Positions 4,688-62,741 of a stretch of DNA of 64,000 nt are shown here, piece after piece; position 1 is the stretch's first letter; the number at the start of each line of letters is the position of its first letter. Under the pieces are notes generated by a model. It did no database searches, was not told the origin of the DNA, and saw only the letters and a list, made by a program, of their open reading frames with translations. This stretch comes from Paramesorhizobium leguminum (lineage in GTDB: Bacteria > Pseudomonadota > Alphaproteobacteria > Rhizobiales > Rhizobiaceae). The translations under genes and the position numbers were made by a program. The DNA lies in assembly GCF_003217235.1 (NCBI RefSeq), contig NZ_QJTF01000013.1, positions 1-64,000 on the forward strand, given 5' to 3'.

Positions 4688-5095
4688 ATGATCGACAAAG
4701 ACAAAATTCGCCATCGCCATTGGTCGCTCAAGGTCAGCCGCATCGACCCGGAAACGGGTATTGCCGCTGATACCTATGGCGCGATCGTCACCGCCATCGA
4801 CGATCTGCATCAGTCTATTTCCAACCTGATCATGACGCCGAAGCGCTCCGTGCCGACCGAGCCGGAAAAGGGCTGCGACATCGATGGCGCGATCGACAAG
4901 CATCCGGACATCGGCATTCCGTTGCTTACCCGCGAAATCTGGGACGCCATCACCATCTGGGAGCCGCGCGTCGTGGTCGAGAAGGTTGACGTGCTATTGG
5001 CACAGTTTTCCCATTTCAAGACACGGGTTTTCTGGCGACCGGTCGAGGGGGTGCTTGCCGATCAGTACATGACGGAGGTCCAATATCGTGCCTGA
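4688..5095 (+). CDS. GPW/gp25-family baseplate wedge protein
   Basis: A 135-aa protein of the gpW/gp25 baseplate wedge type. This lysozyme-like fold initiates sheath assembly on the baseplate. The family feature is the short region TREIWDAITIWEPRVVVEKV (residues about 80-99), matching the conserved alpha-beta core. No strong Shine-Dalgarno is visible before the ATG. The gpJ-like gene overlaps its end by 8 bases. Confidence 0.7.
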   Translation: MIDKDKIRHRHWSLKVSRIDPETGIAADTYGAIVTAIDDLHQSISNLIMTPKRSVPTEPEKGCDIDGAIDKHPDIGIPLLTREIWDAITIWEPRVVVEKVDVLLAQFSHFKTRVFWRPVEGVLADQYMTEVQYRA

Positions 5096-25294: not shown

Positions 25295-25921
25295 ATGGGC
25301 ATTACCGTCATCGATCATCCGCTTGTCCAGCACAAGCTCACCATCATGCGCAAGAAGGAGACCTCGACGGCGACTTTCCGGCGGCTGCTGAAGGAGATAT
25401 CGCTGCTGCTTTGCTACGAGGTGACGCGCGATCTGGAACTGACGACGATACGCATCGAAACGCCGCTGACGGAAATGGACGCGCCGACGCTGGAAGGCAA
25501 GAAGCTGGTCTTCGCCTCCATCCTGCGCGCCGGCAACGGACTGCTTGAGGGGATGCTCGATCTGGTGCCCGCGGCGCGCGTCGCCCATATCGGGCTCTAC
25601 CGTGACCACGAGACGCTGCAGCCGATCGAATATTATTTCAAGGCGCCGGAGGATATCGTCAACCGGCTCATCATCGTGGTCGACCCGATGCTCGCCACCG
25701 CCAATTCGGCCATCGCGGCCATCGACAAGCTGAAGGAGCGCGGCGCGAGCAACATCCGCTTCCTCTGCCTCCTCGCCGCGCCAGAAGGCATCGAGCGCTT
25801 CACCAAGGCCCACCCGGACGTGCCGGTATTCACGGCGGCTATCGATAGCCATTTGAACGAGAAGGGCTATATCGTGCCGGGGCTGGGCGATGCGGGTGAT
25901 CGGATGTACGGGACGAAATAG
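25295..25921 (+). CDS. upp: Uracil phosphoribosyltransferase
   Basis: A 208-aa enzyme converting uracil and PRPP to UMP in pyrimidine salvage. The start [20 protein letters not shown] matches the family N-terminus and gives the E. coli length (208 aa), deciding it over in-frame ATGs at 25229 and 25259. The PRPP loop is [12 protein letters not shown], and the C-terminal [17 protein letters not shown] is the uracil-binding family end. It is divergent from ubiE. Confidence 0.93.
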
Positions 25922-26034
25922 GGCTGCACTGCACCAGTCGCGGCGATAGTATAGAGGGCGTCTGCCAGCACCCCCATTAAACCATGACTAATTCTAAAGT
26001 GTTTCACTTTCAGATGGAAGCGCGCTGCGATCTC

Positions 26035-26193
26035 ACCCCTCTGGCTTGCCAGCCATCTCCCCCTCAAGGGGGGAGATTACGCTTTCATGAACGCTCGCGC
26101 ACCAATCGCAAGCGTTGCAGAATAAGCACCGAGCGTTGCGTCAGCCAATCTCCCCCCTTGAGGGGGAGATTGGCTGGCAAGGCAGAGGGGGGT
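26035..26193 (+). repeat. Type A palindromic element, copy c
   Basis: A 159-bp copy between convergent upp and the small VapB-like gene. Left arm hairpin GGCT/AGCC is intact. The right arm carries a mismatch in its small hairpin (GCCT with AGCC) and GATTGG in place of GATGG, so this arm looks decayed. Confidence 0.93.
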
Positions 26194-26245
26194 GAGAACA
26201 CGAACGATTCCGTCAAAATAAGCACCGCTCACAGCTAGCCTGCCA

Positions 26246-26416
26246 TCAAATCGGAATTCCGTGCTCGTCATAGCCGATGATCTCATCAGCGCTGCGATCA
26301 TCGAGGATAGGCAGTTGGGCCCAGCGCTCACGCATTTCGCGCAATTCATCAAGCAGGCGCTCCTGTTCCGGAGTGCTTGGGGCGGTCGTTTCCGGTTTTT
26401 TGCTATCAGGGAACAT
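26246..26416 (-). CDS. Small orphan protein resembling the C-terminal half of a VapB antitoxin
   Basis: A 56-aa protein ending in DDRSADEIIGYDEHGIPI, which closely resembles the toxin-binding tail of VapB-type antitoxins (RSxDEILGYDExGLP). No DNA-binding N-terminal domain and no VapC PIN-domain gene is next to it. A clean GGAGGA site 7 bases before 26416 suggests it is translated; the in-frame ATG at 26434 is less likely. It could be a remnant or a free-standing toxin-neutralising peptide. It is divergent from metH. Confidence 0.6.
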   Translation of the reverse strand: MFPDSKKPETTAPSTPEQERLLDELREMRERWAQLPILDDRSADEIIGYDEHGIPI

Positions 26417-26497
26417 CGGTTGTCCTCCATTCACATATATAGGATTTCACCTTAACTTCTGCCCGTTGTCAAAACGGCTAAGTCTTACTCGCTCTAA

Positions 26498-26526
26498 TTG
26501 ACATAAACATATCTTTATGTCATTAA
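26498..26526 (+). promoter_or_regulatory. metH promoter overlapped by a 24-bp palindrome (operator candidate)
   Basis: TTGACA (26498-26503), a 17-base spacer and CATTAA (26521-26526) form a promoter-like pair. A palindrome with arms TGACATAAA (26499-26507) and TTTATGTCA (26514-26522) around CATATC covers the spacer; 22 of 24 positions are symmetric. The position implies repression. An ArsR-type SAH/SAM-responsive regulator of methionine genes is a plausible binder (inference). No B12 riboswitch fits in this short leader. Confidence 0.65.
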
Positions 26527-26562
26527 ATCCCACCAGCAGGGCACAGCAGGTAATTTGGCATT

Positions 26563-29500
26563 ATGAGTTCTCTTGACGATCTCTTCGGACCCCAAGCACC
26601 AAAGCCGGACGGTTCGGAAGTGCTGGCTGCGCTGACCAAGGCGGCGCGGGAGCGCATCCTCATTCTCGATGGGGCGATGGGGACGCAGATCCAGGGGTTG
26701 GGCTTCCACGAGGAACATTTTCGCGGCGAGCGTTTCAGCGCCTGCGAGTGCCATCTGCAGGGCAACAACGATCTCCTCACGCTGACCCAGCCGGCGGCCA
26801 TCGAGGACATCCACTACGCCTATGCCATGGCCGGGGCGGATATCCTCGAAACCAATACCTTTTCCTCTACCTCCATCGCGCAGGCCGATTACGGCATGGA
26901 GGAGATGGTCTATGAATTGAACCGTGACGGTGCGCGCCTTGCCCGCCGCGCCGCGCTGCGGGCTGAGCAGGCGGATGGCCGCCGCCGCTTCGTTGCCGGC
27001 GCGCTGGGGCCGACCAACCGCACCGCGTCCATCTCGCCCGATGTCAACAATCCGGGCTTCCGCGCCGTCTCCTTCGATGATCTGCGTATCGCCTATGCGG
27101 AGCAGCTGCGCGGCCTGATCGATGGCGGCGCCGATATCATCCTCGTCGAAACCATCTTCGACACGCTGAACGCCAAGGCGGCGGTCTTCGCCTGCGAGGA
27201 AATCTTTGCCGAGAAAGGCGTCCGCCTGCCGGTGATGATATCGGGCACGATCACCGATCTCTCCGGCCGCACGCTTTCCGGGCAGACGCCAACGGCGTTC
27301 TGGTATTCTCTGCGCCACGCCCAGCCCTTCACCATCGGGCTCAATTGCGCGCTGGGGGCCAACGCCATGCGCGCCCATCTGGCGGAGATATCAGGCGTTG
27401 CGGATACATTCGTCTGCGCTTATCCCAATGCCGGCCTGCCCAATGAATTCGGCCAGTATGACGAGAGCCCGGAGGCGATGGCGGCGCAGATCGAGACCTT
27501 TGCCCGTGAGGGGCTGGTCAATGTGGTCGGCGGCTGCTGCGGCTCGACGCCGGATCATATCCGCGCCATCGCCGAGGCCGTCTCCCGGCACAAGCCCCGC
27601 GCCATTCCAGAAATTCCGCCGCTGATGCGGCTTTCCGGTCTTGAGCCGTTCACGCTGACCAAGGATATCCCCTTCGTCAATATCGGCGAGCGCACCAATG
27701 TCACCGGCTCCGCCAAATTCCGCAAGCTGATCACGGCAGGCGATTTCGCCGCCGCGCTCGATGTCGCCCGCGACCAGGTGGAGAACGGCGCGCAAATCAT
27801 CGACGTCAACATGGATGAGGGCCTGATCGATTCTCAGAAGGCGATGACCGAGTTCCTCAACCTCGTCGCCGCAGAGCCGGATATCGCGCGCGTTCCCGTG
27901 ATGATCGATTCCTCCAAATGGGAGATCATCGAGGCAGGTCTGAAATGCGTTCAGGGCAAGCCGCTGGTCAATTCCATCTCGATGAAGGAGGGTGAGGAGG
28001 CCTTCCTGCATCACGCGAGGCTCTGCCGCGCCTATGGCGCCGCCGTCGTCGTCATGGCCTTCGACGAGCAGGGGCAGGCGGACACGAAAGAGCGCAAGGT
28101 CGAGATCTGCACCCGCGCCTATAAGCTCCTGACCGAGCAGGCGGGCTTCCCGCCGGAAGACATCATCTTCGATCCCAACATCTTCGCGGTGGCGACGGGC
28201 ATCGAGGAGCACAACAATTACGGCGTCGATTTCATTGAGGCGACGCGCGAGATCATCGCGACGCTGCCCCATGTCCATATCTCCGGCGGCGTGTCGAACC
28301 TCTCCTTCTCGTTCCGCGGTAATGAACCGGTGCGCGAGGCGATGCATGCGGTGTTCCTCTACCACGCCATCCAGGCGGGCATGGACATGGGCATCGTCAA
28401 TGCGGGCCAGCTCGCCGTCTATGAATCCATAGAGCCGGACTTGCGCGAGGCCTGCGAGGACGTGGTGCTCAACCGCCGTGCGGATTCGACCGAACGCCTG
28501 CTGGAGCTTGCCGAGCGCTTCAAGGGCGCCGCCGGCAAGGAAGCCAAGGAGCGGGATCTGAAATGGCGCGAATGGCCGGTGGAAAAGCGGCTGGAGCACG
28601 CGCTGGTCAACGGCATCACCGAATATATCGAGGCCGACACCGAGGAAGCGAGGCTCGCCGCCAAACGTCCGCTGCATGTCATCGAGGGGCCGCTGATGGC
28701 CGGGATGAATGTCGTCGGCGATCTCTTCGGCTCGGGCAAAATGTTCCTGCCGCAGGTGGTGAAATCCGCTCGCGTCATGAAGCAGGCCGTGGCGGTCCTC
28801 CTGCCCTATATGGAGGAGGAGAAGCGCCTCAATGGCGGCGGCAGCGAGCGCCAGAGCGCCGGGAAGGTGCTGATGGCGACCGTCAAGGGCGACGTGCACG
28901 ATATCGGCAAGAACATCGTCGGCGTCGTTCTCGCCTGCAACAATTATGAGATCATCGATCTCGGCGTCATGGTGCCGGCGACGAAGATATTGCAGACAGC
29001 GCGCGAGGAAAACGTCGATATCATCGGCCTTTCCGGCCTGATCACCCCATCGCTCGACGAAATGGCGCATGTGGCGGCGGAGATGGAGCGCGAGGGCTTC
29101 GATATCCCGCTCCTCATCGGCGGCGCCACGACGAGCCGGGTGCACACGGCGGTGAAGATTCATCCGCGCTATGAACGGGGCCAGACGGTCTATGTCGTCG
29201 ATGCCAGCCGCGCCGTCGGCGTCGTCTCCAGCCTTCTATCGCCGGACGGCAAGCAAACCTATATCGATGGCGTGCGCACCGAATACGCCAAGGTGGCCGC
29301 CGCCCATGCGCGCAACGAGGCGGAAAAGCAGCGCCTGCCGCTCGCCCGCGCCCGCGCCAATGCGCAAAAGATCGACTGGGACGCCTACACGCCACCCAAG
29401 CCCGCATTTCTGGGAACCCGCACCTTCGAGAATTGGGATCTGGAGGAGCTATCCCGCTATATCGACTGGACGCCCTTCTTCCAGACCTGGGAGCTGAAGG

Positions 29501-44688: not shown

Positions 44689-45455
44689 CCGCAGACGACC
44701 GCAGATCGCTGGCGCTTCGCGTGCTGTCCTTGATCGACCTGACCGACCTTGACGACAATTCCACGGCGCAAGGCGTGGCAGAACTGAGCGCCCGCGCGAT
44801 AACCCCGCATGGCCATACGGCGGCGATCTGCATATGGCCCCGTTTCATCGAGACGGCAAAGGCGCTTCTGCACGGAACCGGGGTGCGGGTCGCGACGGTC
44901 GTCAATTTCCCCCATGGCGGCACCGATATCGATGGCGTGCTGGCCGAGACGCGGCGGGCAATAAGCGATGGCGCCGACGAGATCGATCTCGTTCTGCCCT
45001 ATCGCGATTTCGCCGCCAATGGCGCGGCCCTTTCCCGGCAGATGATCGGCTCCGTGAAAAAGCTCTGCGGCCGCAAGGTGAAGCTCAAGGTCATTCTGGA
45101 GACAGGCAAGCTCGCCGATGAAGCCGCAATCGAGTCCGCTTCGGAAGTGGCGCTGGAAGAGGGCGCGGACTTCATCAAGACCTCGACCGGCAAGGTGGAA
45201 ATCAATGCCACGCCGGCGGCGTTGCGCATCATGCTGGAAGCGATCCGCGAGTCGGGCAGCGCAGCCGGGGTGAAGCCCGCCGGCGGCATCCGCACGCTCG
45301 ACGATGCCGCGCAATATCTCGATTTCGCCGATGCGATCATGGGCGAAGGCTGGGTAAAACCGGAAACCTTCCGCTTCGGCGCGTCAAAGCTTCTCGACGA
45401 TGTGCTTGGCCAGCTGGGCAGCGGCGCGAGCAGCACGGCGTCATCGGGCTATTGA
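44685..45455 (+). CDS. deoC: Deoxyribose-phosphate aldolase
   Basis: A 256-aa class I aldolase splitting 2-deoxyribose-5-phosphate into acetaldehyde and glyceraldehyde-3-phosphate. The Schiff-base Lys lies in FIKTSTGKVEINAT, and the second catalytic Lys in AGVKPAGGIRTL; GADEIDLVLPYRDF is also typical. It overlaps punA upstream and leads into deoA after 5 bases. Confidence 0.94.
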   Translation: MTADDRRSLALRVLSLIDLTDLDDNSTAQGVAELSARAITPHGHTAAICIWPRFIETAKALLHGTGVRVATVVNFPHGGTDIDGVLAETRRAISDGADEIDLVLPYRDFAANGAALSRQMIGSVKKLCGRKVKLKVILETGKLADEAAIESASEVALEEGADFIKTSTGKVEINATPAALRIMLEAIRESGSAAGVKPAGGIRTLDDAAQYLDFADAIMGEGWVKPETFRFGASKLLDDVLGQLGSGASSTASSGY

Positions 45456-45460
45456 TCCCC

Positions 45461-46774
45461 ATGCTGCCGCAAGAAATCATCCGCGCCAAGCGCGACGGAA
45501 AGGTGCTGCATCCAGACCAGATCGCCTTTTTCGCCAGAAGCATCGCCACCGGCGCTGTCAGTGAAGGCCAGATAGCCGCCTTCGCCATGGCGGTCTTCTT
45601 CAACGGCATGAGCCGCGATGAGGCGGTAGGGCTGACGCTCGCCATGCGCGATTCCGGCGATGTGCTCGATTGGTCGTCGCTCGATGGCCCGGTGGTGGAC
45701 AAGCATTCGACCGGCGGCGTCGGCGACAATGTCTCGCTGATGCTGGCACCCATCGTCGCCGCCTGTGGCGCCTATGTGCCGATGATTTCCGGTCGCGGTC
45801 TCGGCCATACCGGCGGCACACTCGACAAGATGGATGCGATTCCCGGCTATATCAGCCAGCCCGACAAGGCGCGCTTCGAGACGACGGTGCGCGAGGCCGG
45901 CTGCGCCATCATCGGCCAGACCGCCGATCTGGCGCCCGCCGACAAGCGCTTCTATGCGATCCGCGACGTGACGGCGACGGTCGAATCCATCCCGCTCATC
46001 ACCGCCTCGATTCTGTCGAAGAAGCTCGCCGCCGGTTTACAAGGGCTGGTGCTGGACGTGAAATTCGGCAATGGCGCGTTTATGACGAAAAGCCGCGATG
46101 CGACGGCGCTTGCCGAAAGCCTCGTCGCGGTCGCCAATGGTGCGGGCCTTCCCACCACGGCGCTCCTCACCGACATGGACCAGCCCCTGGCGCTCGCCGC
46201 GGGCAATGCCGTCGAGGTTAAGAATGCCGTCGACTTCCTCACCGGCGACCGGCGCGATGCGCGGCTCCTTGAGGTGACGCTGGCGCTCGCCGCCGAAATG
46301 CTCGTCACCGCCCGCTTGGCGCAAACGCCGCGTGAAGCGATGGAACAGGCGCAAGCAGCGCTGACAAGTGGCAAGGCGGCTGAAACATTCGGGCGGATGG
46401 TGGCGCTTCTCGGCGGACCCAGCGATTTCATATCGCGCCCCGCGCATTATCTCCCCGCCGCGCCTGTTATCCGCCAAGTGCCGTCGCCGCAAAAGGGCTT
46501 TGTCGGCTCCATTGAAACCCGCGCGCTGGGCTTGGCCGTCGTCGCGTTTGGAGGCGGACGCACGCGCCCCGAGGATAAGATCGATCACGCAGTCGGCCTC
46601 ACCGCCCTGCAGCCGATTGGCGCTGAAATGAACGCGGGCGACCCGCTCGCGATGGTCCACGCCCGCGACGAGGCGGCAGCGGAGGCGGCGGTTCGCGCTG
46701 TCCAGGCCGCCTACGGTTTCGTGCCATTACGCCCGCGCGCCAGTCATCCGGTCAAGCGCCGGATTGCAGGATAA
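45461..46774 (+). CDS. deoA: Thymidine phosphorylase
   Basis: A 437-aa enzyme releasing thymine and deoxyribose-1-phosphate from thymidine. Family motifs are the phosphate-binding KHSTGGVGDNVSLMLAPIVA, SGRGLGHTGGTLDKMDAIPG (the PS00647-like signature), and a C-terminal domain ending FVPLRPRASHPVKRRIAG. The ATG at 45461 is preferred to the TTG at 45452. A degenerate second copy of its 3' end lies downstream at 46958-47104. Confidence 0.94.
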   Translation: MLPQEIIRAKRDGKVLHPDQIAFFARSIATGAVSEGQIAAFAMAVFFNGMSRDEAVGLTLAMRDSGDVLDWSSLDGPVVDKHSTGGVGDNVSLMLAPIVAACGAYVPMISGRGLGHTGGTLDKMDAIPGYISQPDKARFETTVREAGCAIIGQTADLAPADKRFYAIRDVTATVESIPLITASILSKKLAAGLQGLVLDVKFGNGAFMTKSRDATALAESLVAVANGAGLPTTALLTDMDQPLALAAGNAVEVKNAVDFLTGDRRDARLLEVTLALAAEMLVTARLAQTPREAMEQAQAALTSGKAAETFGRMVALLGGPSDFISRPAHYLPAAPVIRQVPSPQKGFVGSIETRALGLAVVAFGGGRTRPEDKIDHAVGLTALQPIGAEMNAGDPLAMVHARDEAAAEAAVRAVQAAYGFVPLRPRASHPVKRRIAG

Positions 46775-46780
46775 AGAATA

Positions 46781-46942
46781 GAATTTTATGTGCTGGCCCT
46801 GCCCACGGAAGGAAAGGCGCTGGCGAAAAGTCTCGGCGCGAAATTTGTCGAAATCCCCGGCGGCCACGGCAGCCCAATCGAGCAGCCGCAGCGCCTTGCG
46901 CGGATTCTTACGGCGTTTCTGCAGAACGCGTCGAGCGGATAG
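46781..46942 (+). pseudogene. Alpha/beta-hydrolase-like C-terminal fragment
   Basis: A 53-residue open segment without a start: LALPTEGKALAKSLGAKFVE, then IPGGHGSPIEQPQRLARILT, ending AFLQNASSG. The GGHGSPIEQP..LARIL pattern matches the His-containing end of alpha/beta hydrolases. It lies right after deoA and just before a deoA tail duplication, so this is a scar of a rearrangement. Confidence 0.55.
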
Positions 46943-46957
46943 CTGGTTATATCAGGC

Positions 46958-47104
46958 GGATCGGCGCGGAGATGGACGTGGGTGATCCGCCAGCGTTTGT
47001 CCAGGCCCGCAACGAGGCGGCGGGTGGGTGGTCCAGGCCGCTTGCGGCTTTACCCAACTCAAACCCTGCGCCATCTGCCCGGTCAAGCGCCGCATCGCGG
47101 GGGT
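46958..47104 (+). pseudogene. Degenerate duplicate of the deoA 3' end
   Basis: The translation reads RIGAEMDVGDPPAFVQARNE and, after a frame change, VQAACGFTQL..CPVKRRIAG. This mirrors the deoA terminus PIGAEMNAGDPLAMVHARDE .. VQAAYGFVPL..HPVKRRIAG. A frameshift near 47022-47030 separates the halves. It shows that a second deoA-like gene or a duplication once lay here. Confidence 0.8.
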
Positions 47105-47142
47105 GACATTCTTGCCGGTTTGGAGAATATGCGAAAAACGCC

Positions 47143-47388
47143 TTACATCACATAGGCGGCAATCGAAGCGCCTGTCAGCACGACCGCCAATGCAATCATG
47201 ATGCCATAAAAGCGCGGCCGGTCGAACAGCACCGCGAAAGCAGAGAACCATGCAACGATGGCCGCGCCGAGCGCGAAGAGGAACCCGGGCTTGTCGCCGA
47301 TCGTGATGTTGACGGCCATCAGTCCGCCGATGATGAGCGCGCCGAATACAATCAGCAGCCCGGTGGCGTATCTTTCGTAATCGTCCAT
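47143..47388 (-). CDS. Small hypothetical membrane protein
   Basis: An 81-aa protein with three hydrophobic segments (GLLIVFGALIIGGLMAVNI, FLFALGAAIVAWFSAFAVLF, IMIALAVVLTGASIAAYVM). The start at 47388 (MDDYERY) is preferred to the ATG two codons earlier. Function unknown; it is convergent with the deoA scar and divergent from the MGMT gene. Confidence 0.55.
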   Translation of the reverse strand: MDDYERYATGLLIVFGALIIGGLMAVNITIGDKPGFLFALGAAIVAWFSAFAVLFDRPRFYGIMIALAVVLTGASIAAYVM

Positions 47389-47494
47389 TTGCATTCCTCG
47401 ATCAGGCGCGGATGCCCTTATTATTCGCTTCTAGGCATAACATATTATCCCTCGTCTCCAACAGCAAATCAGGATTTCGGATAGGATCAACGCC

Positions 47495-48070
47495 ATGGAA
47501 TCGCTTGGGATAATTTCCTTCGAAACGGCCATAGGCTCCTGCGCCATCTCCTGGGGCGAGCGGGGCATTGTTGGTGTGCAGCTGCCGGAGGCGAGCGCGG
47601 CGGCGACGCTGGCGAGGCTGCGGAAGCGGTTTCCGCCGGCGCAAGAGATGCCCGCGCCTGCTCCTGTGCGGGAGGTTATAGACGGCATCGTTGCCCTCCT
47701 CGAAGGCGAGAAGGCCGATCTTTCAAAGGCTCCGCTCGATATGGAAGGGCTACCGGCGCTTCATCGGCAAGTTTATGAGATCGCGCTCCAGATACCGCCC
47801 GGCGAAACCCTGACCTATGGCGCGATCGCGAGGCGGATCGGCGGTGTCAGCCTTTCGCAAGCCGTGGGGCAGGCGCTTGGCAAGAACCCCTTCCCCATCA
47901 TCGTTCCCTGCCATCGCGTGCTCGGCACCGGCGGCAAGACGGGCGGCTTTTCGGCCAATGGCGGTGCTGAGACGAAGTTGCGGATGCTGACCGTCGAGGG
48001 GGCGAGGACGAGCGATGAGCCTGACCTCTTCGGCAATCTGCCGCTTGCGATGAAGCCGGGGCGCGGCTGA
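47495..48070 (+). CDS. ogt: Methylated-DNA-protein cysteine methyltransferase
   Basis: A 191-aa suicide repair protein that removes alkyl groups from O6-alkylguanine. The acceptor Cys is in FPIIVPCHRVLGTGGKTGGF, preceded by the helix-turn-helix region PPGETLTYGAIARRIGGV. The N-terminal part is the Ada/Ogt-type ribonuclease-H-like domain. No AdaA domain is attached. It stands alone. Confidence 0.93.
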   Translation: MESLGIISFETAIGSCAISWGERGIVGVQLPEASAAATLARLRKRFPPAQEMPAPAPVREVIDGIVALLEGEKADLSKAPLDMEGLPALHRQVYEIALQIPPGETLTYGAIARRIGGVSLSQAVGQALGKNPFPIIVPCHRVLGTGGKTGGFSANGGAETKLRMLTVEGARTSDEPDLFGNLPLAMKPGRG

Positions 48071-61164: not shown

Positions 61165-62741
61165 AGTGGGTAGCTTGTGGGTTAACTGGCTACTCACGTT
61201 GCCTAAACCACGCTCCCGGAAATAATTTTCCAGCGTGGCGGCATCCGCTGATGGTTCGGCGACCGCGACATAGGTGTCGGGCCGCAGCAGATAGGCGGCG
61301 TCGCGCTGCAGTCCCGCCTCAGCGTATCGCTCGTTCCAGCCGAATACGCGCAACACAACACCGCGCTTTTCGCACCAGGCCGCCAGTTCCGGTTTGGCTT
61401 CACCATAGACGTGGAGCTGCCAGCCGATCTTCGGGAGCGGTTCGAAATTGTCTGTTCCGTCATTGTCTGTCCCGTCGAGCCGCACGAATGGCAGGCGATC
61501 GCCGCCGCTGACTTTCCCGGCGGTTCCGACGCTGAGCGGGCTTTCCGGGTAACTGATCATGGTTTGCGAGACGATGCGGAACATCATCTCACGGGCGGCT
61601 TCGAAGCTGTATACGACCTTCATGAAGAGCGGAGCGATTCGTGTGCGCACGAATTCGGCAAAACTGCCCTGCGCGGTGACGAAGGTGAAGGCGCGGTCAG
61701 TAGTCTCCACCAGCTTGCGGGCGAAGGCGGGGCGCTCCGCCTCGTAACTGTCGAGCAGGCTGTCAGGAGCATCCCCCTTGATGACATCAGCGAGTTTCCA
61801 CGCCAGATTGATGGCGTCCCCAATGCCGGTGTTCATCCCCTGCCCGCCCGCCGGACTGTGCACATGGGCGGCATCGCCAAGCAGAAATACATTTCCATGG
61901 CGGAAGCGGTCGGTAACGCGGTGGTGGACGCGATGGTCGAGAACCAGTTCACAGCTCTGACCTGAAGACCCAGCGCGCGCACCGCCTCCTGTCCGACATC
62001 GTCGAAGGCAAGCGTCTCAGCGCTGCCCACCCGGTTTTCGCGCACGGTTCCGACGAAACGCAGCTTGCCCGGCTCACCGTAGGGCATGATCAGAACGAAA
62101 TCCGGTCCCTCGAAACTGATGGTGACCTCGCCGCTGATCGTATGCGTTCCAGCGTCTACCTCGACATCGGCAACATAAAAGAGCTGCTCGTAGGTGCCGC
62201 CCTCGAAACTGGCGCCAAGGTTCTTACGCACCGTTGAGCGCGCGCCGTCGCAGCCGGCCAGATAGCGCGCCCGGCATTCCGCCTTGCTTCCGTCGGGCAG
62301 CTGCAGCTGCGCCTCGACGCCCGTTCCGTCATCCAGGAAATCAAGAAGCTCGGTCCGGCGCTCGACAACAATCCCCCGCATCCGAAGGCGCTCGACCAGG
62401 AAGCTTTCATGGAGATCCTGCGGATAGATCAGAACGTATGGATAGGGTGTGATATCTGCGCCGAAATCCGAGAAATTGAGATGCGCCCTTCTCTTGCCGA
62501 GGGTCCAGATCTCAATGCCTTCGGCCTTGTTGCCGGCGGCAACGACCGCATCCGCCAGACCGAGCTGTCGATAAAGCTCCAGCGTCCGGGCGTGGACCGC
62601 CAGCGCGCGTGAAGTTGTGCCGGGTCCCTCCGATTTGTCGATGATCCGGACACGCGCACCCTGCGCATCGAGCCACAGAGCGAGGACAAGGCCGGTCGGC
62701 CCTGCGCCAACGATCAAAACATCTGTCTGCGTCATTGCCAT
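61162..62741 (-). pseudogene. FAD-dependent aromatic monooxygenase, frameshifted
   Basis: A PheA/TfdB-type flavoprotein hydroxylase split by a one-base change. The first frame (62741 to about 61934) has the FAD fold TDVLIVGAGPTGLVLALWLD and the YLAGCDGARSTVRKNLG motif. The second frame continues with RVHHRVTDRFRHGNVFLLGD, AAHVHSPAGGQGMNTGIGDA and the thioredoxin-like C-terminal domain. The expected junction WFST-YRVHHR reads ACCATCGC where ACCTATCGC would restore frame, so one T appears lost near 61932-61937. This is a real frameshift or a sequence error. Confidence 0.82.

Follow-up and report, generated by a model that had tools for sequence, protein, structure and literature searches.

Orphan or anti-addiction antitoxins such as the chromosomal CcdA and the phage protein Dmd consist of an antitoxin part without a toxin gene, and neutralisation has been shown for both; the sections of PMC7354431 that deal with them describe many orphan antitoxins as looking like remnants of degraded systems and some as genuine, and present the proposal that they act as anti-addiction modules. 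The same sections tie cross-talk of VapB antitoxins to their last 30 residues and describe the VapBs of Mycobacterium tuberculosis as specific for their own VapCs, with non-cognate VapCs not neutralised (PMC7354431). One of these mycobacterial proteins, VapB30 (Rv0623; PDB 4xgq/4xgr), is the closest solved protein to the open reading frame (ORF) described here. According to PMC10945364, VapB10 of S. meliloti is similar to VapB30 and its gene overlaps the toxin gene by one nucleotide, and a published VapB30 peptide is credited in PMC10526153 to helix 1 and not to the tail. Our literature searches, whose narrow terms make an empty result weak evidence of absence, returned no tail-only VapB neutraliser and no phage antitoxin against VapC.

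The ORF lies on the minus strand at positions 26246-26416 of the window, the 64,000-nucleotide stretch of DNA analysed here, begins with ATG and encodes 56 amino acid residues. Its residues 21-55 align with residues 49-83 of the 84 residues of VapB30, its C-terminus (E 5.9e-8); VapB30 has an N-terminal half and a cognate VapC30, whereas the ORF has neither. The match to the Pfam family PSK_trans_fac (PF07704, Rv0623-like; E 1.6e-7, 32.6 bits against a curated cut-off of 28.3) covers ORF residues 17-55 and profile positions 44-82 of 82. The C-terminal toxin-binding tail of a VapB is present in full, with all 10 invariant columns of a 12-tail alignment kept, and the N-terminal DNA-binding and dimerising half, profile positions 1-43, is absent. 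Lacking the ribbon-helix-helix half, the ORF protein should not bind DNA or autoregulate. The ORF had no match in NCBIfam, and a DUF2508 match below cut-off (E 0.0067) and weak PHROG matches were taken as chance. Residues 1-16 show no recognised similarity to VapB: 44 of 54 relatives' loci align from residue 17 or later, and the remaining 10 (L025, L031, L035, L038, L045, L047, L053, L061, L071 and L075) align from residues 3-15, none from 1 or 2. These ten alignments extend into other pre-tail sequence, and none of them copies the N-terminus of the ORF (L038 was read in part).

No vapC (PIN) gene follows the ORF directly; only the TGATGG junction is left, and the frame opened by its ATG reads ATG GCA GGC TAG, with a stop as the fourth codon. 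When VapB and VapC proteins of nine relatives, two of them identical, were used as queries, they matched solely the ORF tail, and no N-terminal VapB match was found elsewhere in the window (the next best match, at 62461 with E 0.009 and 27% identity, was taken as chance). A Shine-Dalgarno sequence GGAGGA lies on the minus strand at 26428-26423, 6 nt before the ATG; a 6-nt match at usable spacing precedes 11 of 2360 ATGs in the window, counted on both strands and including the ATG of the ORF and other gene starts. The initial annotation had described a VapB tail without its DNA-binding part, with no toxin neighbour and with a clear GGAGGA site, and these features are all borne out. In the terms used for orphan antitoxins, the toxin-binding part is present and its own toxin is absent, as in CcdA and Dmd; unlike these, the ORF is known from its sequence alone, and its DNA-binding half is also gone. 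The ORF is not classed as a VapB, since the N-terminal half and the toxin gene were both searched for and are both absent; its product could work like the toxin-binding end of one.

The vapBC loci of Rhizobiaceae and relatives, for example L022, L023, L106 and L115, share 74-76% protein identity with the ORF over 38 residues and 76-78% DNA identity over 122-123 nt. Unlike the ORF, they have full VapB frames with the VapC start overlapping by TGATG, although the VapC of L023 is itself broken. At the DNA level, similarity to vapBC operons forms a single block of at most about 123-135 nt (26243-26365, minus strand), comprising the vapB tail codons, the stop and the overlapping vapC start TGATGG at 26248-26243, where it mostly ends. 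Among 73 alignments of the region with vapB loci, the end falls exactly on 26243 in 40, a base beyond it in one and before it in 32; 21 start at 26366-26363, two at 26377 (11-12 nt further out) and 50 further in. Position 26243 lies 3 nt beyond the ORF stop, and in complete loci these 3 nt finish the TGATGG in which vapB stop and vapC start overlap. Of 89 complete-looking vapB-PIN loci, 44 have TGATGG, which would arise after a TGA by chance alone about once in 64 cases. Similarity that runs into TGATGG and usually ends there points to a broken vapBC operon. With a single block of similarity, and VapB and VapC queries that match the tail alone, the best reading is a vapBC fragment truncated at either end, and it is close to certain that the ORF derives from a vapBC operon. 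The stand-alone neutraliser proposed initially is favoured by the intact tail, but the DNA block points instead to a broken operon. Broken vapB or vapBC pieces also occur elsewhere, namely on contig C26 of the same genome (with an internal stop) and at L031, L061, L131 and L204.

The fragment lies in a rearranged region. We refer to its neighbours as upp and deoA, putative assignments from their sequences, and as metH, the name given in the initial annotation. In each of five genus mates, one contig carries metH and upp in convergent orientation at a distance of 19-41 kb; the window has them in tandem, separated by 0.64 kb. In four of the five genus mates deoA follows upp, directly or past a small gene or repeat, and the fifth (G003) differs; in the window deoA is found at 45452-46774 (45.5-46.8 kb), with the order flipped. 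By gene order, the metH-deoA segment (26563-46774) is inverted in the window relative to the genus mates. The left breakpoint interval extends from just after upp to the start of the pre-metH similarity (25922-26497) and contains the ORF. The sequence preceding metH in G003 is found at 47142-47897 of the window, which places the right breakpoint within 46775-47142, an interval with a partial repeat of the deoA 3' end. It also holds a fragment that we take to resemble the C-terminus of a hydrolase and that G003 has near upp. No piece of vapBC was found in the right interval, and a vapBC split by the inversion with its other half there was rejected for this reason.

A full vapBC at this place in relatives had been named initially as the sign of a decaying remnant. 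None was found in the 1.5 kb before metH in any of the five genus mates (frames of at least 75 codons and two motif strings), and the place itself is a rearrangement unseen in them. After upp, G003 has what we presume to be a different module, a Phd-like antitoxin and a PIN-like ORF. Conservation of the ORF in relatives, which the initial annotation had proposed to check, did not emerge: no tail-only copy was found in the five genus mates, and the similarity found between their DNA and 26201-26490 nowhere exceeded about 30 bp. Between upp and the ORF lies a dispersed palindromic repeat (26036-26194) whose predicted hairpin is very stable (z -10.9 for window positions 26020-26260). A one-arm repeat query had 80 matches in the strain's own genome, 79 of them within the first 95 bases of the query, on the repeat side. 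A second palindrome, TGACATAAACATATCTTTATGTCA, stands before metH at 26499-26522, and its core precedes metH in 22 of 23 relatives by pattern count, including all five genus mates (L091 is without it). This palindrome, whose region the ORF was suggested to share, is real; it lies about 80 bp upstream of the ORF start and goes with metH. It is possibly a putative methionine-regulon operator of the SahR type; the SahR motif is given in PMC4239095 as a 20-bp palindrome, with SahR regulons in 11 of 15 Rhizobiales genomes.

Taken together, the ORF is probably a leftover fragment of a mobile vapBC operon of the Rv0623/VapB30 type, situated at an inversion breakpoint and without a selected function today. 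A rearrangement would have left between upp and metH about 123 bp that begin in the vapB tail and end with the vapC start codon. The fragment would have landed at the breakpoint of the inverted metH-deoA segment, preceded by an open stretch that supplies a good ribosome site, and may have arrived or been cut in the same event as the inversion. The 56-residue frame would be translated, and its product, having no selected function at present, would at most bind a VapC of its subfamily. The observations behind this reading are the similarity and its ends, the TGATGG junction, the inverted gene order and the lack of copies in five genus mates; against it stand the undecayed tail and the strong in-phase ribosome site, which is unusual for debris. 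We consider it improbable that the frame is a chance opening from which no protein is produced. Its position within an inversion breakpoint, the lack of conservation in genus mates and the lack of a promoter-like match (scans of window positions 25900-26700 found neither a sigma-70 promoter nor a terminator) would all agree with an accidental frame; a 6-nt Shine-Dalgarno sequence at a spacing found for so few ATGs of the window and a complete tail in frame argue against one.

The state of the tail was assessed with a profile of other tails. The ORF tail scores 83.2 bits and outscores all 89 tails of complete-looking VapBs (21.4-81.9 bits, median 65.9); some of the 10 typed tails behind the profile belong to the comparison set too, a bias that favours the set and not the ORF. 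The 89 were obtained from 111 distinct tail-bearing frames by a length rule and a crude VapC-start pattern. Six of the 22 frames dropped have fewer than 36 pre-tail residues (L131, L048, L062, L064, L053 and L204; L062 begins at a contig edge, so that its N-terminus cannot be judged), and the others have no recognised VapC or run into an edge, among them L168, the phage protein described below. Each of the last 40 residues of the ORF is present at the same position in at least one of 83 tails. The dN/dS of the ORF against 17 relatives is 0.11-0.26 over 38 codons. Among these relatives themselves the median is 0.07 (range 0.01-0.40; the 93 of 136 pairs with more than 15 differences and a defined dS), so the value for the ORF is low, yet on the high side of its relatives. 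An undecayed tail fits selection as well as a recent origin from an unsampled vapBC branch, and 38 codons cannot separate the two.

With the protein query, matches were obtained in 11 of 61 relatives (E up to 0.1), in three of six genus genomes, the strain's own included, and in 54 of 394 genomes sampled from the family; the tail-alignment query matched in 33 of 397 genomes sampled from the order. Most frames at 54 relatives' loci are full-length VapBs, most of those read being followed by a VapC-like start; broken or unusual frames were seen on reading at L031, L048, L053, L061, L062 and L064. None of the 58 matches listed for the family has a shorter frame than the window, with its 66 codons from stop to stop; the next have 70 (G293) and 74 codons (G203), both broken vapBs on reading. 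The same is true of the 42 matches listed for the order, where the next has 77 codons (G616). Tail-only copies are therefore rare. A 55-codon frame in G029 (E 0.08) was set aside as chance, as it lacks a GYDE tail and overlaps a longer open frame in a different reading phase. Two scans of viral contigs revealed no relative of the ORF.

The initial annotation had also envisaged a VapC encoded elsewhere in the strain as the target. In the strain genome (67 contigs, 99.85% complete), a search at E up to 0.01 gave 14 PIN matches, and all 14 genes have an antitoxin-like ORF directly upstream; the types of these ORFs are presumed, except for the PF07704 proteins, which were identified by domain search. 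One PIN protein, L137 on contig C2, shows 33-37% identity to all eight query VapCs of the tail's family (E down to 7e-21) and is distantly related to that family. It is paired with a PSK_trans_fac VapB of its own, which ends in a quite different tail, and the other 13 PIN proteins match those queries no better than E 0.049. Neutralisation of a VapC from the same genome, for which L137 offers the one distantly related candidate, is very improbable, given an upstream antitoxin-like ORF at each PIN gene and the different tail of L137's VapB. A VapC that fits the tail closely would need to be brought in from elsewhere or to lie in sequence missing from the assembly. A partner within the strain is not evident, and what remains of the neutraliser idea is mainly a defence against elements that enter the cell. 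No second copy of the ORF was found in this genome (next match E 1.18). PF07704 matches number six: the ORF, one complete protein on C2, one match on C4, two overlapping ones on C26 and a weak one on C12. The pair on C26 lies around the internal stop of a second broken vapB (G000:C26:24880-25119, L174), and the PIN search of the genome had no match on that contig.

Mobile elements of the same group do carry matching toxins. Block-like DNA is present on 33 of 72,556 plasmid records, 19 of them predicted to be conjugative. Of the 15 plasmid records listed, several are annotated with VapB and with VapC beside the block, and others are without annotation or match over 63-72 nt only; none of the 15 covers more than 47% of the 290-base query. 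We find it possible but rather unlikely that the ORF encodes a stand-alone anti-addiction peptide, which would neutralise the VapC that plasmids or phages bring in and so allow the cell to lose these elements, and which the missing DNA-binding half would free from vapBC autoregulation. Judging from its sequence, the intact tail could yet neutralise a toxin that a plasmid brings in. The strong ribosome site and the plasmid records speak for such a role, as do the proposal of this function for orphan antitoxins and the link between VapB cross-talk and the last 30 residues in the sections of PMC7354431 cited above. The missing copies in five genus mates, the rarity of tail-only frames among the matches listed for 394 family and 397 order genomes, the absence of a promoter-like site in the sigma-70 scan and the M. 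tuberculosis VapBs that spare non-cognate VapCs (PMC7354431) speak against it. A passive anti-addiction role, though possible, is unproven, and we rank it below a leftover of a vapBC operon.

Among 50,697 phage records, one has the tail at a convincing score. In RHph_X2_30 (MW980061.1; L168:3701-4084; host Sinorhizobium americanum), a 127-residue protein, QXV73627.1, carries it at about residues 87-123, with 86.5% identity to the tail consensus over 37 positions and a PSK_trans_fac match limited to profile positions 42-82. No other phage record matches its first 85 residues at E 0.1; one plasmid record gives a weak match to them. The neighbours are a 49-residue hypothetical protein and then a short hypothetical protein on the opposite strand, with no VapC in the adjacent genes. 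Like the ORF, QXV73627.1 has the tail without an adjacent VapC; unlike the ORF, it has it on an unrelated N-terminus in a phage genome. It is a possible phage-borne VapC neutraliser, which adds to the case for an anti-addiction peptide, and its tail is presumably an independent capture. Still broader, and in our estimate doubtful, is the idea that the VapB tail is an autonomous, reusable toxin-binding piece captured by hosts and phages in the absence of the toxin and the DNA-binding half. Such captures would yield VapC neutralisers exempt from autoregulation, one chromosomal here and one in RHph_X2_30. Should the tail by itself neutralise VapC in cells, it would amount to a natural minimal antitoxin that has lost its link to autoregulation. 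Rhizobial plasmids carry vapBC modules of this kind, and the tail would then allow the anti-addiction idea to be tested cleanly for chromosomal orphan antitoxins in rhizobia; otherwise the locus is an ordinary record of vapBC operons breaking at rearrangements.

Two further short frames were seen among the relatives' loci. At L048:4974-5249, in an Acidobacteriia MAG, a VapB-tail frame has a very short N-terminus and no VapC was seen downstream; a second stretch after it resembles, as we assume, the C-terminus of another antitoxin. At L064, in Caenispirillum salinarum, a short VapB-like tail frame, apparently without the DNA-binding helices, lies within about 500 bases before position 4989 and precedes a second vapB with a broken frame and a VapC-like frame.
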